Shown here one piece after another: positions 4,001 to 23,772 of a stretch of DNA of 39,615 bases. The notes beneath the pieces were generated by a model. That model worked only from the letters and a program-made list of their open reading frames with translations. It was not told the DNA's origin and did not search any database. The translations under genes were made by a program, and so were the position numbers. Positions within the stretch are counted from its first letter, which is position 1. The number at the start of each line of letters is the position of its first letter. The DNA comes from a virus: the IMG/VR virus record IMGVR_UViG_3300025101_000058, positions 1-39,615 of that record. One strand, written 5' to 3'.

Positions 4001-4008
4001 CTAAATAG
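4001..4008 (+). promoter_or_regulatory. Late promoter motif for the gp54 cluster
   Basis: CTAAATAG lies directly after the gp4 start codon (minus strand) and 26 bases before the GTG start of gp54 on the plus strand. CTAAATA is close to the T4 late element TATAAATA. It forms the left arm of an inverted repeat with the motif at 4025-4032. Confidence 0.55.
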
Positions 4009-4024
4009 AAATGATATAGTAGAA

Positions 4025-4032
4025 CTATTTAG
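4025..4032 (-). promoter_or_regulatory. Late promoter motif for the gp4-gp53 cluster
   Basis: The minus strand reads CTAAATAG, 25 bases before the gp4 start. It mirrors the plus-strand motif at 4001-4008, so the two promoters face each other across 16 bases. Confidence 0.55.
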
Positions 4033-4033
4033 A

Positions 4034-4861
4034 GTGGCAGTACCGATTCCAAAGAAAATATCTCAGATATTACCTACTTTTCAGAATGTAGCACAATCAT
4101 CTCATTACATAGTTGATTTTGGTCTACCTGCTGAAGTATCTTCACATTTAAGAAGTAAGGGTGTTGATAGTAGATTTGATCTTGATAAGATAGGATTATT
4201 ATGTAGTAAGGCAGTTTTGCCTGGAAGTGCTTTTGCTACAATAGATGCTGTAGGTGAATATCAAGGATTAGTTGAGAGATTTCCTCATACTAAAAAGTTT
4301 GTACAGATGCAATTAGAATTTTATGTTGATAATGAATATAAAGCACTTAAGTTTTTAGAACATTGGATGGAGTATATTAGTGATGGTTCTAATTCTGATT
4401 CTTTAGAAGATACCTATCACTATAGAATGAATTATCCTATAACATATAAATCTCAAACTACTACAATTACAAAATTTGAAAAAAATTACAGACAAAATAT
4501 TGAATATAGTTTTCGTGGATTATATCCAATTGAATTAAATTCAACTGTAGTTCAATATCAGAACTCTCAAGTTCTGAAGGCAACTGCTGCATTTAATTAT
4601 GATCGCTATGTTTGTGGTAAAACAAAGTCGTGGGATAGGGAAAGAGGTGTAGATAGAAATTATGGTAGTGTGGAATCGCAATTAGGCAATAATCTTAAAG
4701 GTCCTATTGGTGGTGAAGGGTATCTTCTTTTAAATCCTGGTGCAGAATCCTCAACAGGTGCAGGAAATAAAGATCTTTTCGCTGGTAAAAAACCATATGA
4801 TATATACACTCCAAAAGGACAAATAACTGATACTTCCACTGTTAGGACATTTTTTAACTAA
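4034..4861 (+). CDS. 54: Baseplate tail-tube initiator gp54-like protein
   Basis: A 275-residue protein of the T4 tube family, best fitting gp54, which together with gp48 forms the platform on which gp19 tube rings assemble. Signatures: a first half with FPHTKKFVQMQLEFYVDNEY and LKFLEHWMEYI, then YHYRMNYPITYKSQTTT, and the tube-fold beta strands IEYSFRGLYPIELNSTVVQY and VLKATAAFNYDRYV. The open frame runs back to 3887 inside gp4, but there is no good start there. The GTG at 4034 sits just after a late promoter motif and yields AVPIPKKISQILPTF, so I choose it. No strong Shine-Dalgarno is visible. Unlike in T4, gp54 heads the hub cluster here. gp48 and gp54 could be swapped, as both share the fold. 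Confidence 0.72.
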   Translation: MAVPIPKKISQILPTFQNVAQSSHYIVDFGLPAEVSSHLRSKGVDSRFDLDKIGLLCSKAVLPGSAFATIDAVGEYQGLVERFPHTKKFVQMQLEFYVDNEYKALKFLEHWMEYISDGSNSDSLEDTYHYRMNYPITYKSQTTTITKFEKNYRQNIEYSFRGLYPIELNSTVVQYQNSQVLKATAAFNYDRYVCGKTKSWDRERGVDRNYGSVESQLGNNLKGPIGGEGYLLLNPGAESSTGAGNKDLFAGKKPYDIYTPKGQITDTSTVRTFFN

Positions 4862-4901: not shown

Positions 4902-5621
4902 ATGCCTTTACCAAAGATTTCGACTCCTTCTTATGAGTTGGTAATACCTTCCACAAAAAAGAAAATTAAATTTAGACCTTTCTTAGTTAAGGAAGAGAAG
5001 ATTTTAATCCTTGCAATGGAAAGTCAAGATAATAAACAGATTGCAAGTGCAGTTAAAGATGTGATTGCAGCATGTATTCTTACAAGAGGAATAAAGGTAG
5101 AAACTTTATCAACATTTGATATTGAATATTTGTTTTTGAATATTCGTGGAAAATCTGTTGGAGAAGAAGTAGAGGTTACTATTACTTGTCCAGATGATAA
5201 TGAAACTAAGGTTCCTTCAGTAATTAATCTTGATGAGATAAAAGTTCAAATAGATGATGATCATTCTCCAGATATTAAATTGGATGATGAATATGTTTTA
5301 AGGATGAAATATCCATCAATGGATGAATTTATAAAAACTAATTTTGCTGTTGAAGGTGATATTAATGTTGATGATACTTTTAAATTGATTGCGTCATGTG
5401 TAGACCAAGTTTATTCTGAAGAGGAATCTTGGGCTGCTTCTGATTGTACAAAGAAGGAATTATCTCAATTTATAGAATCACTTAATTCAAAACAATTCAA
5501 GGAAATTGAAAAGTTTTTTGATACTATGCCAAAACTTTCACATACTGTTAAAGTAACAAATCCTAATACTAAGGTTGAAAGTGAAGTTATACTGGAGGGA
5601 CTGCAAAGTTTTTTCGGGTGA
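4902..5621 (+). CDS. 26: Baseplate hub assembly protein gp26
   Basis: A 239-residue member of the T4 gp26 baseplate hub family. In T4 it acts in building the central hub. Recognisable parts are the opening LPKISTPSYELVIPSTKKKI, then FRPFLVKEEKILILAMES, the helix TFDIEYLFLNIRGKSVGE, ITCPDDNE and the later KYPSMDEFI. The C-terminal half (IASCVDQVYSEEE, then LSQFIESLNSKQFKEIEKFF) is helical. The last codons are AGT TTT TTC GGG TGA, which place a T TTT TTC slip site in the correct phase to enter the next ORF. Normal termination gives 239 aa and a -1 shift gives 301 aa. The promoter at 4871 is immediately upstream. The family call is strong. Confidence 0.85.
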   Translation: MPLPKISTPSYELVIPSTKKKIKFRPFLVKEEKILILAMESQDNKQIASAVKDVIAACILTRGIKVETLSTFDIEYLFLNIRGKSVGEEVEVTITCPDDNETKVPSVINLDEIKVQIDDDHSPDIKLDDEYVLRMKYPSMDEFIKTNFAVEGDINVDDTFKLIASCVDQVYSEEESWAASDCTKKELSQFIESLNSKQFKEIEKFFDTMPKLSHTVKVTNPNTKVESEVILEGLQSFFG

Positions 5622-5650
5622 GTATGGCACATGAAGATCTTGCGTCATAC
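5594..5650 (+). other. Candidate programmed -1 ribosomal frameshift signal joining gp26 and gp51
   Basis: Three elements line up. A Shine-Dalgarno-like GGAGGGA sits at 5594-5600. A heptamer T TTT TTC at 5609-5615 is in the gp26 frame as X XXY YYZ. A possible 7-pair stem, GTATGGC (5622-5628) with GTCATAC (5644-5650), begins 6 bases after the heptamer. The purine block ends about 9 bases before the slip site, as in the dnaX frameshift, and is too far from the gp51 start for normal initiation. Slippage yields FFRVSMAHEDL and a 301-residue fusion. The stem is modest, with one G-U pair and a 15-base loop. Confidence 0.65.
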
Positions 5651-5806
5651 TACAAAATTAATTTTGCCTTAATGCAACATCATAAATATAGCTTGACAGA
5701 GTTAGAAAATATGATACCTTGGGAAAGAGAAATTTATCTTTCACTTTTACAACAGCATATTGAAGAAGAAAACTTAAAAGCACAACAAGAATCGGGACTT
5801 AATTAA
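5618..5806 (+). CDS. 51: Baseplate hub assembly catalyst gp51-like small protein
   Basis: A short ORF of 62 codons from the GTG at 5618, or 60 from the ATG at 5624. It lies in the -1 frame relative to gp26 and overlaps it by 4 bases (GTGA). The protein is helical: HEDLASYYKINFALMQHHKY, then LTELENMIPWEREIYLSLL and a Glu/Gln-rich tail. The position after gp26 and the WEREIYLSLL pattern resemble the tail-assembly chaperone extensions of many tailed phages and the gp51-type gene that follows gp26 in T4. The upstream purine block suits frameshift stimulation better than initiation here, so the product may be made mostly as a gp26-gp51 fusion. Its stop shares one base with the next ATG (TAATG). 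Confidence 0.68.
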   Translation: MSMAHEDLASYYKINFALMQHHKYSLTELENMIPWEREIYLSLLQQHIEEENLKAQQESGLN

Positions 5807-7308
5807 TGGCTCCAGCATCGCCACTTACAGGAGGAATACAGGCAGTAAGAAGGTCTGTTCCTGCTGCTGCGTTTACGGGTAGAGCTGTAGCACCTTCTAC
5901 TGTCCAACCTGATAGTGTAACTACTAATTTATTAACTAGGAATAATTCAGCATTAGGTGATGTATCACTTCGTCTTTCTTCACTAACACAACAGATTCAG
6001 GGAATGAATCAAGGATTGAATGCGATACAGAATAATCTAGCAATAAAGGATGATTTAGATAGACAAAGAGCTGCTGCAGAGGCAAAAAGGCAAAGGCAAT
6101 TATCGCAAATAAAATTAAGAGAGGGAAAAGAAGGAGCGATAGAGAAGAAAATTCAAGCAGCATTATTTACTCCAGTTAGGAAAATTGGTGCAAAGTTACA
6201 ATTTGGTTTAGGTAGATTAGCTAATTTCTTTACTATTCTTTTAACGGGATGGCTTACGTTACAAACGATTGATTTATTTAAAGCAACGGCAGATGGTAAT
6301 ACAGAGAAAATAAAAGAAATTCAGAAGACAATATTAGGAAACCTTGCTTTTGTTGGAGGAGCTATATTCCTAATACAGGGTGGATTAACTTTATTAGCAG
6401 CAAAAATAGCAGGACTTGGATTTAAATTTTTAAAGTTTGGTGCAAGTAGGCTTCTTGGAAAACCATTAAGAGCATTAACTACTTTATTAGCAGGAAAATT
6501 TGCTCAAGCATTAGGAAATAAAACTATACAGACAGGAGCAACTAAAGTTGTTAGTAAGGGAATAACTGGTAGTGTTACTAAGGGTCTTACTGGTGCTAAT
6601 ACAAGACCTAATGTTAAAGTAGCAGGAAATCTTTTAGCACCAGGTATTCAAGTTGGAATGGATGTTGCTGGTGGAAAGGATGTAAGAGAATCTGTTAAGG
6701 ATACTACTGTTGCTGCTACATCTGCAGCTGTTACAACCAGTAGTTTGAGAAAAGTATTGCCTAAGAAATTTAAATTATTAGCTGATCTTGGTGGGATAAT
6801 TAGTTGGATAGGAACTTATGCAATATCTGATTTATGGAATCCTTTTGAAGAAAGTGGTAAGAAACAACAAGAAAATCTAGAAGGTAATATTATGCCTTCA
6901 GTGATGGTTCCTATAACTGATGAGATGCTTGAAGCTGAACGTCAAATCTCTATGGAGGATGTTCAAGGTTTACAGCAACCTAAGAGAGAGGATTTTGGTT
7001 CGGGAAGAGGTGGTGCTAAGGCATTTCAAAAAGCTAAAAAAGAATTTAATGCCCAGAAAGTAGAGTTAGCAAAGAATATTACACCAGTTAATAAGCAAAG
7101 GAGTATTGCTACAAATGTAGATACTGATGTAGATGATGGACCACAGTTTATACCAATGCCTATGGGTTCTGGTAGAAGTAATCAATCAGGATCGAATGCT
7201 TCTGGATCTCCAGCAGGTGGTGATTCTGGTATTCCAACTGTAGCAGCATCTAATCCTATGTTTAGAAGTTATCAGTTAGTTGCTAAAAAGCATTTTCAGG
7301 TAGTGTAG
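5806..7308 (+). CDS. Tape-measure-like structural protein, copy 1
   Basis: A 500-residue protein in the position where T4-like phages keep hub and tape-measure genes. Residues 40-120 form a coiled-coil-like region (LSSLTQQIQGMNQGLNAI, then DRQRAAAEAKRQRQLSQ). Residues 138-160 (LANFFTILLTGWLTLQTIDL) and 177-212 are strongly hydrophobic, as in tape measures that contact the host membrane during DNA entry. A Gly/Ala/Thr-rich stretch follows, and the C-terminus carries IPMPMGSG and GSPAGGDSG motifs. The next protein has the same plan and the same two motifs in swapped order, so the two are probably ancient duplicates. I infer a tape-measure or hub role; specific assignment to T4 gp29 or gp28 is not supported. 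Confidence 0.6.
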   Translation: MAPASPLTGGIQAVRRSVPAAAFTGRAVAPSTVQPDSVTTNLLTRNNSALGDVSLRLSSLTQQIQGMNQGLNAIQNNLAIKDDLDRQRAAAEAKRQRQLSQIKLREGKEGAIEKKIQAALFTPVRKIGAKLQFGLGRLANFFTILLTGWLTLQTIDLFKATADGNTEKIKEIQKTILGNLAFVGGAIFLIQGGLTLLAAKIAGLGFKFLKFGASRLLGKPLRALTTLLAGKFAQALGNKTIQTGATKVVSKGITGSVTKGLTGANTRPNVKVAGNLLAPGIQVGMDVAGGKDVRESVKDTTVAATSAAVTTSSLRKVLPKKFKLLADLGGIISWIGTYAISDLWNPFEESGKKQQENLEGNIMPSVMVPITDEMLEAERQISMEDVQGLQQPKREDFGSGRGGAKAFQKAKKEFNAQKVELAKNITPVNKQRSIATNVDTDVDDGPQFIPMPMGSGRSNQSGSNASGSPAGGDSGIPTVAASNPMFRSYQLVAKKHFQVV

Positions 7309-7309
7309 T

Positions 7310-8890
7310 ATGGCAAATAATACACAGACAACTAGAAAATCTTTATTAAAATCTTCTATTAGTGTTAAAACTATACAGGATTCTGTATCTGGGTTATCCA
7401 AGACATTTTCTGATACTACAAAAACAGTTAAGAAAATTATAAAGAATACTGGTGAAAATAATAAATTTATGAGGAAGTTGATAGGTGATGAAGCAACCTT
7501 TTTCCAAAGAAGACGAGAGCAAGTATTGAGAAGAGAGAAGGAAGATGTTACTGAAGCATCTTCAGTTGGTGGTGCTATTAAGAGAAGGGGAAAGGTAATG
7601 TCATCTAGTACTAAAGGATTCTTAGGTAGAATATTAGATTTCTTTGGTATAATAATGTTAGGTTGGTTAATTAATAATATACCTCCTATAATTAAAGGTG
7701 TAACAGCATTAATAGATCTTATCAGTAAAGTTGTTGGTGTTTTTAGTGGATTTTTTAGTGGTATGTTTGGTGTATTTAATATGATTGGAGAAGGATTTAG
7801 TGAAGTTATCCAATCTCTAACACCAATTTCTTTTGATACTGATAAAAAAACTATTCAGAAAGGATTTGATGATGCACGAACTGGTTTAGTTAAATTTGAT
7901 GATGGTGTTGATGCGGATATACGAAATTATTTAAATCCTGCATCTTATCAATTAGAAACTTTTGACTTTGCTGAAGAAGGTGAGGGGGAAGAAGATACTG
8001 ATGTTGAAGAAGAATTAGAGGAAGACAAAGATAATGATAATAAAGAAGAAGATACTGAAAAAGTAGAAGAAGAAAAACAACCAGAAAAAATAGAGGTTAA
8101 AGTAGAACCAAAAGAAAATTTGGTTAAAGGTACTAAGAAAAAGGGAGAAGAAAGAGTTCCTGATGATGATCCTAAGATAGCAAATGATACGAATGCAAAT
8201 CTAGAAGATAGGTTTGATAATGGTTATATACCTCAAAGAATGATCAATGGAAAAGAAAATCCAGAATATGCTGAATATAAAGATTGGTTAAATGCACCAG
8301 GTGGACTTGAAATGTTTAAGGATGGTGGAATAATAAAAGGAAAATCACATGCAGATGGTGGGGAAGATGTTAATGTTGAAGGTGGTGAAGCCATCATACC
8401 TAAGAAGAGTGTAGATGAATTAGGACCAGAGTTTATTAATAGAATTATTGAAGGTAATGCAGATAAAATTACTAAATTGAGAGCAGGAAGAAGTTTATTA
8501 GAAAAACTTGTTGAGCAGCATAAAGAAGAAAATGACGGTCTTATAACATATGATGAATATAATGAATTAAAGGCAGCAACAATAGGTAAATTAAAAGAAC
8601 ATCTTAGAAGTTTAAATTTTGATTCTACTAAGAAACAACCTCAACAATTAACACCTAAGAAACAAGATCCACCTAAAATTGAAGTTAAAAAATCTAAAAT
8701 AAATTCAGAATTATCAACTACTCCTAAAAAGAAGAGGAAGAAGGTCATTACTATTCCAATAGGATCTCCAGCAGGAGGAGGATCGGGTGCAATACCAATA
8801 CCTATGGGTGGTGGTAAATCTAAAAAAACTATTGTTAATACAGGACTATCAATCGGTGATTTGCAGTCACTAATGTTATCAGAAACTTAA
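7310..8890 (+). CDS. Tape-measure-like structural protein, copy 2
   Basis: A 526-residue protein starting one base after the previous stop. It has an N-terminal helical part (SVSGLSKTFSDTTKTVKKI), an Arg/Glu-rich stretch (QRRREQVLRREKEDV), and a hydrophobic block at about 104-164 (LDFFGIIMLGWLINNIPPII, then VFSGFFSGMFGVFNMIG). A long acidic and Lys-rich spacer covers about 220-300. Residues around 340-370 read MFKDGGIIKGKSHADGG and EGGEAIIPKKS, a GGI..G.SH..GG..v..EGGEaI pattern familiar from many tape-measure and tail proteins. The end holds IPIGSPAGGGSGAIPIPMGG, matching the motifs of copy 1. A role in setting tail length or membrane penetration is inferred from context and hydrophobicity. 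Confidence 0.6.
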   Translation: MANNTQTTRKSLLKSSISVKTIQDSVSGLSKTFSDTTKTVKKIIKNTGENNKFMRKLIGDEATFFQRRREQVLRREKEDVTEASSVGGAIKRRGKVMSSSTKGFLGRILDFFGIIMLGWLINNIPPIIKGVTALIDLISKVVGVFSGFFSGMFGVFNMIGEGFSEVIQSLTPISFDTDKKTIQKGFDDARTGLVKFDDGVDADIRNYLNPASYQLETFDFAEEGEGEEDTDVEEELEEDKDNDNKEEDTEKVEEEKQPEKIEVKVEPKENLVKGTKKKGEERVPDDDPKIANDTNANLEDRFDNGYIPQRMINGKENPEYAEYKDWLNAPGGLEMFKDGGIIKGKSHADGGEDVNVEGGEAIIPKKSVDELGPEFINRIIEGNADKITKLRAGRSLLEKLVEQHKEENDGLITYDEYNELKAATIGKLKEHLRSLNFDSTKKQPQQLTPKKQDPPKIEVKKSKINSELSTTPKKKRKKVITIPIGSPAGGGSGAIPIPMGGGKSKKTIVNTGLSIGDLQSLMLSET

Positions 8891-22957: not shown

Positions 22958-23290
22958 ATGAAACTTGAGCAGGGTAAGTTCTGCCCTTTAATTGGTAAAG
23001 ATTGTATTCAAATGCAGTGTGCTTGGTTTACTCATGTTCGTGGTATGAATCCTAATACAGGAGAGGAAACTGATGAATATGGATGTGCAGTTACTTGGTT
23101 GCCTATGATGATGATTGAAAATTCTGGACAACAGAGAGCAACTTGTGCTTCTATTGAATCCTTTAGAAATGAAACTGTGAGATCAACTATGAAAGCACAA
23201 GAAATATATCAAAGAGAATTGGAATTAAAAGCTCAAGAGAGATTACAACAATCTAAGCAAATAAAAAATGTAACGGAGATAGAAGAATGA
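22958..23290 (+). CDS. Conserved Cys-containing small protein (110 aa), function unknown
   Basis: A 110-residue protein with a compact N-terminal half holding C9, C16, C21 and C43 (KFCPLIGKDCIQMQCAWF, DEYGCAVTWLPMM) plus C62, and a helical Lys/Glu/Gln-rich C-terminal half. The four closely placed cysteines suggest a metal or Fe-S site, or disulphides, but none is proven. I do not recognise a named family. It starts 4 bases after the collagen fibre stop and overlaps the next gene by 4 bases (ATGA), so it belongs to the fibre operon and may help assemble or attach the fibre. Confidence 0.65.
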   Translation: MKLEQGKFCPLIGKDCIQMQCAWFTHVRGMNPNTGEETDEYGCAVTWLPMMMIENSGQQRATCASIESFRNETVRSTMKAQEIYQRELELKAQERLQQSKQIKNVTEIEE

Positions 23291-23772
23291 AATTAACAGT
23301 CGTTCCATCTGATAAAACAATAATTATTGATACTGAAGGAGTGGTATGTAGTAATGTTGATCTTTCTTGGATTCCTACAGATGTTCATGCGATGCATTGG
23401 GATAGTTCAACAAACAAAGGTCACGTTGAATATACTACTGAAGGTAAATGGAATGAGGATATTACTGCAATAGGTATTTGGCAACAAGCAGTAACAGATC
23501 ATGCTAATGAAAAAACTGCTCAAGCAAATATAATAGAGGCAGCAAGAGATCATTTAGCAGAAGTAAAACAATATAGAAATGCTTTATTATCTTGGTCTGA
23601 TTGGACTCAAGGTAATGATTCTCCATTAGGTTCTAGTAAGAAAACTGAGTGGCAAACATATAGACAAGCATTAAGAGATATTCCAGCAACTATAGCAGCA
23701 GATAGTGGTTTAACTGCGAAGGCGATGGCAGATGACTTTACACATTCCAGTTGGCCGACAAAACCTACATAA
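23287..23772 (+). CDS. Second protein with tail assembly chaperone-like C-terminus (161 aa)
   Basis: A 161-residue protein. The first 75 residues (KLTVVPSDKTIIIDTEGVVC, HAMHWDSSTNKGHVEY) form a beta-rich domain resembling small proteins found beside phage fibres. The C-terminal part repeats the signature seen at 19586: VKQYRNALLSWSDWTQGND, WQTYRQALRDIP and WPTKP. It overlaps the preceding gene by 4 bases and sits just upstream of the hydroxylase gene. The repeated fibre-then-chaperone order suggests each collagen-like fibre has its own helper. The function is inferred from the domain and context. Confidence 0.65.
   Translation: MKLTVVPSDKTIIIDTEGVVCSNVDLSWIPTDVHAMHWDSSTNKGHVEYTTEGKWNEDITAIGIWQQAVTDHANEKTAQANIIEAARDHLAEVKQYRNALLSWSDWTQGNDSPLGSSKKTEWQTYRQALRDIPATIAADSGLTAKAMADDFTHSSWPTKPT

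Follow-up and report, generated by a model that had tools for sequence, protein, structure and literature searches.

Does gene 26 of this marine T4-like phage end in a signal that moves a share of the ribosomes into the -1 frame, so that the small downstream ORF known as gp51 is made as an extension of gp26, or is gp51 a protein in its own right? The question was raised by a first-pass annotation of IMG/VR record IMGVR_UViG_3300025101_000058, of which the whole 39,615-nucleotide stretch (hereafter, the window) was analysed. The junction was examined in the window itself, in its relatives and in comparison with genes 26 and 51 of T4-type phages.

The gene 26 junction

Gene 26 (4902..5621; plus strand, as are all features of the gene cluster) specifies a 239-amino acid protein, the putative short chaperone form (TAC-N). 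It is a member of the PF12322 (T4_baseplate / gp26) family [E=2e-75; 253.7 bits against a gathering cut-off of 24.5] and matches phrog_150, baseplate hub [E=8.6e-83]. The genes follow one another as tail tube, gp26, gp51, tape-measure-like ORFs (weak profile matches) and hub proteins. The tail tube gene (4007..4861) was recognized by PF23849 [E=1.7e-20], and the -1 frame extension, gp51 or putative TAC-C (5616..5806), by phrog_634 [E=3.3e-28] and by positions 239-280 of phrog_150 [E=8.7e-8]. A 500-amino acid ORF (5806..7308), which lies in the tape measure position and had no confident family match that would show its identity, is followed by a 526-amino acid ORF (7310..8890) that is weakly tape-measure-like [phrog_1535 tape measure, E=7e-4; phrog_3547, E=1.7e-3]. 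Upstream, on the minus strand, the ORF at 3048-3566 matches the DNA end protector gp2 [phrog_429; E=8e-21].

The 3' end of gene 26 reads CTG GAG GGA CTG CAA AGT TTT TTC GGG TGA. It contains a slippery heptamer of the tandem-slip X XXY YYZ type, T TTT TTC (5609..5615), in the zero frame and one codon before the TGA stop (5619..5621). The Leu-Glu-Gly codons include a Shine-Dalgarno-like purine block, GGAGGG (5594..5599), nine nucleotides 5' of the heptamer. Reading in the -1 frame from the heptamer meets no stop before that of gp51 at 5806, which gives a predicted fusion of 301 amino acids with the junction FFRVSMAHED. The candidate independent starts for gp51 are GTG 5618 and ATG 5624, neither of which has a well-spaced Shine-Dalgarno sequence. 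On all of these points the first-pass annotation was borne out. It had also described a downstream stem of seven pairs after a 6-base spacing; a stem-loop is present (5621..5651) but begins 5 nt past the heptamer and has eight consecutive pairs (5621-5628/5644-5651), followed by an A.C mismatch (5629/5643) and two further pairs (5630-5631/5641-5642). Against synonymous codon randomisation the window stem scores z = -4.2.

The bare heptamer is not rare, with 10 occurrences in the window and 15 expected. The 30 ORFs of the window contain 71 in-frame X XXY YYZ heptamers, and that of gp26 is the sole one that lies where a gene ends and is followed by a conserved -1 extension. Near the 3' end of a small conserved ORF (22958-23290) lies a second candidate, A AAA AAT. 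It was dismissed because the junction is an ordinary ATGA overlap that has an SD-like GGAG of its own; the gene overlapped downstream is tail-fibre-assembly-like (23287-23772).

Conservation, codon choice and the downstream stem

Among 173 relatives with distinct gp26 sequences, 170 have an in-frame T TTT TTN heptamer at the junction, a count that includes T TTT TTT, T TTT TTG and two heptamers shifted by one codon, and leaves out one locus (L148, discussed below). The carriers comprise phages of the Kyanoviridae, Aeromonas and Vibrio Straboviridae, and phages of Stenotrophomonas, Rhizobium and Nitratidesulfovibrio. T TTT TTC itself is found in P-SSM2, P-SSM4, P-SSM7, S-PRM1, S-CAM4, S-H34 and Aeromonas phage Aeh1, as well as in Vibrio phage V09 (KVP40 species), Stenotrophomonas phage BUCT608, Nitratidesulfovibrio phage SRB7757 and Synechococcus phage BUCT-ZZ01; Rhizobium phage RHph_I1_9 has T TTT TTG. 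The first-pass proposal would have been undermined by close relatives that lack the heptamer or carry gp51 in another frame. The near loci, collected in a scan with the window gp26, have T TTT TTC at the corresponding position in 80 of 80 cases, and gp51 lies in the -1 frame at every locus where it could be placed. Scans with the gp26 proteins of P-SSM4, Aeh1 and a KVP40-like phage added 89 loci, 88 of them with the in-frame heptamer (three as T TTT TTT, one codon-shifted). In the records of Aeh1, S-PRM1, DSL-LC03 and S-CAM4 the gp51 extension is present and unannotated (L087:3717-3884, L082:3028-3213, L083:3013-3182 and L094:3714-3893, respectively).

The three exceptions are the T4-type phage RB18 and two Vibrio Ackermannviridae (L088, L096), which have TAATG instead of a heptamer. 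Scans of viral contigs with the gp26 of SRB7757 and that of Vibrio phage 1.244.A found no relatives, and the Ackermannviridae exception thus rests on two records. Ahead of TAATG these two carry CTTTTTCGC/GTTTTTCGC (L088:3650-3720, L096:3690-3750), which resemble the GTTTTT motif of the Vandenendeviridae (PMC12846349).

The codons at the junction are as constant as the frame. When the sequences were clustered at 85% DNA identity without selection, 93 of 100 clusters had exactly TTTTTTC at the exact position, and TTT TTC is expected for approximately 18% of Phe-Phe pairs. This is the fair figure, since a second set of 91 clusters (85% DNA identity) was preselected for the heptamer, which fixes Phe-Phe as TTT TTC. 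The codon before the heptamer ends in T whether it specifies Ser, Asn, Ala, Asp or Thr. Upstream, the Glu of Glu-Gly is GAG in 72/81 clusters, as compared with a GAG share of 28% across these genes (binomial p 5e-30 were the sequences independent; they are related, so that nominal probabilities are overstated, while the direction is not in doubt).

The stem was assessed in the 64 relatives with an ATG five bases on from the first base of the stop codon. In the alignment 92.9% of cells pair, versus 24-47% with the partner slid. Stem pair 38/52 covaries (UA 27, GC 15, AU 12); its two bases are the third position of the MAH Ala codon and the middle position of a Glu, Ala or Val codon. The window itself is mismatched at this pair. 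The fold energy at the stem site is in the lowest 0.3% of the folding windows of each locus (median of 63), and under synonymous randomisation 91% of the 64 near loci gave p <= 0.01, with a mean z of -4.5. The 29 more distant loci for the most part lack the stem and show no consistent 3' structure, which means that the stimulators are not universal. RNAalifold likewise returned no structure common to all loci, the stem being specific to those with the ATG at +5. Many of the stem-less distant loci are also those without a start codon near the junction. As far as sequence comparison can tell, the codon choice and the covarying stem argue against chance and against coding constraint.

Fusion or separate protein

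T4 gp26 and gp51 are listed as hub assembly chaperones, with gp51 required and yet absent from the particle (review, PMC3004832). The first-pass annotation had labelled the two genes as the T4-like hub genes 26 and 51, which holds for gp26, a counterpart of T4 gp26. It holds in part for marine gp51, which corresponds to the C-terminal domain only of the T4-type protein and matches phrog_634 at positions 60-116 only. While T4-type gp26 contains PF12322 only, T4-type gp51 (that of RB18) has a full PF12322 gp26 domain (residues 1-201) together with a phrog_634 match over its C-terminal part. Since T4-type gp51 is composed of a gp26-like and a C-terminal domain, its counterpart is the 301-amino acid fusion and not the 60-amino acid ORF. 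Phrog_150 must itself include such two-part members, because marine gp51 matches its positions 239-280. RB18 differs from the marine arrangement in that gene 51 is full, separate and on the opposite strand, gene 25 comes after 26, and there is no heptamer.

One locus encodes the two parts directly. In L148:1501-2391 (record G001) gp26 and gp51 are in one frame as a single 297-amino acid ORF; the junction is two bases shorter than that of its neighbour L156, and no second gp26 was found in the 236-kb record. The fusion may be natural, or it may come from an error in assembly. Alignment with hhalign of a profile led by L148 against RB18 gp51 gave a probability of 97.1% [E=7e-11] over columns 13-282, which span the junction.

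These data bear on the best of the alternatives, that a separate small gp51 is made by termination-reinitiation, or from an independent start at the GTG or ATG named above, and that the heptamer is incidental. Close to the junction, no more than about nine codons away, 142 of 169 distinct loci have an ATG; TAATG or TGATG overlaps of stop and start occur in KVP40-like phages, in phages of Stenotrophomonas and Rhizobium and in Vibrio Ackermannviridae; and the databases list gp51 as its own gene. Nor does the missing Shine-Dalgarno site count for much, being weak evidence in cyanobacterial hosts. Against this, 23 of the 169 loci, including those of Aeh1, S-CAM4, P-SSM7 and DSL-LC03, lack any ATG, GTG or TTG close to the junction from which a -1 ORF could begin, and the ATG would be buried by the stem. 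A separate protein would also leave the fixed synonymous codons and the stem unexplained, and in T4-type gp51 the C-terminal domain is joined to a gp26 domain. We consider independent synthesis of gp51 very unlikely.

Still less probable is transcriptional slippage on the T6 run, which would yield mRNAs of altered length and the same fusion. The homopolymer of six T and the rare seven-T variants (L181-L183) are in keeping with it, but six bases are short for slippage by bacterial RNA polymerase, and the fixed codon register, the GAGGG and the 3' stem are marks of slippage by ribosomes. Hardly any credence can be given to the conservation being due to amino acid constraint only, on Leu-Glu-Gly-x-x-x-Phe-Phe and the gp51 N-terminus, for, though the protein motif itself is conserved, the codons are far off their backgrounds of 18% (TTT TTC) and 28% (GAG) and the stem exceeds synonymous randomisation, so that the synonymous-site tests contradict it within the limits of non-independent sequences.

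Frameshift model and known systems

We regard it as very probable, from comparative data, that a programmed -1 frameshift in gene 26 yields a short gp26 and a long gp26-51 as tail assembly chaperones, in the manner of lambda G/GT. Ribosomes would pause at T TTT TTC, held by the SD-like block about 9 nt upstream and the stem-loop 5 nt downstream. The tRNA-Phe molecules in the P and A sites would slip one base back, and reading would continue in the gp51 frame. The majority of ribosomes would stop at the TGA to give gp26 (TAC-N, 239 amino acids), and a minority would go on to the 301-amino acid gp26-51 fusion (TAC-NC); both forms would coat the tape measure protein while the tail or hub is assembled. 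The basis in hand consists of the conserved sequence, the frame, the codon bias, the covariation of the stem and the collinearity of the fusion with T4-type gp51, and from these we infer the occurrence and efficiency of slippage and the chaperone function. The mechanistic part of the first-pass annotation, a dnaX-like cassette serving a G/GT-like pair, is strongly supported by the comparison of block, heptamer, stem and -1 extension. The stem presumably stimulates slippage, and may also hide the gp51 ATG.

The predicted structure (pLDDT 87.8) has good confidence over the gp26 part and poor confidence around the junction. Among the 50 PDB matches listed in a structure search the most probable were 3fgx and the HK97 tail assembly chaperone 2ob9, neither significant (E ~1.8), and a sequence search of solved structures gave no relative. 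The chaperone role is consequently drawn from the order of the genes, the genetics of T4 and published work, and not from fold.

A more extended scheme is possible, if rather doubtful. In it, marine T4-like phages would carry a full dnaX-type signal whose covarying stem has two tasks, to promote slippage and to bury the gp51 ATG, making the C-terminal domain available in the fusion only; the sister lineages without a start codon would mostly be without the stem too; and T4 and L148 would have exchanged the frameshift for a directly encoded fusion.

The frameshift reading corrects the usual annotation of many cyanophage genomes, in which the "gp51 baseplate hub assembly catalyst" is given as a separate protein of ~60 amino acids or is missed. 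It also links marine gp51 to the essential T4 gp51, whose function has long been obscure, by casting it as the longer version of a likely tape measure chaperone. The conserved signal is a simple finder for the gp26/gp51 pair in divergent phages, and the relatives form a natural set in which stem-dependent and stem-free frameshifting can be compared.

In E. coli dnaX an SD-like block ~10 nt upstream, a heptamer and a stem-loop ~5 nt downstream make up the same three-part signal as seen here, where GGAGGG is 9 nt upstream and the stem 5 nt downstream. The two differ in that dnaX has an A-type heptamer and produces a shorter polymerase subunit, whereas the marine locus has a U-type heptamer and would produce a longer chaperone. 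Phage lambda has a short gpG and a frameshifted long gpGT chaperone encoded between the tail tube and tape measure genes, the ribosome slipping into the -1 frame shortly before the short gene ends. The predicted short/long pair and the predicted site of the slip are alike in the marine phages, the heptamer being T TTT TTC rather than the G GGA AAG of lambda. Closer still are the T4-like phages: Vladimirov and colleagues have reportedly found frameshifting to be conserved in several of their groups, T4 itself being said to use separate genes 26 and 51, a picture with which the present sequence comparison agrees.

That paper, on T4-like tail assembly chaperones (Vladimirov, Gautam & Davidson 2022, Virology 566:9-15), is cited in PMC10885494 and PMC12846349; our literature search on gp26, gp51 and frameshift retrieved nothing direct and reached it through the PRFect paper (PMC10885494). 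To judge by its title and the papers citing it, its TAC-N/TAC-NC chaperones belong to the same gene family as gp26/gp26-51. Poly-T -1 frameshift signals in the TAC-N genes of T4-like phages are recorded in PMC12846349, on which ground the suggestion of the first-pass annotation that a frameshifted gp26/gp51 pair was undescribed is not supported. The chaperone genes of the Vandenendeviridae and Andersonviridae (phage Adele; PMC12846349) share the conserved -1 extension and a slippery poly-T motif ahead of the tape measure gene, the motif being GTTTTT there and T TTT TTC at the marine locus. The locus is thus a new, well-supported example of a mechanism and gene pair already known in T4-like phages; new detail may lie in the SD-like block and in the stem, which covaries and is limited to some lineages.
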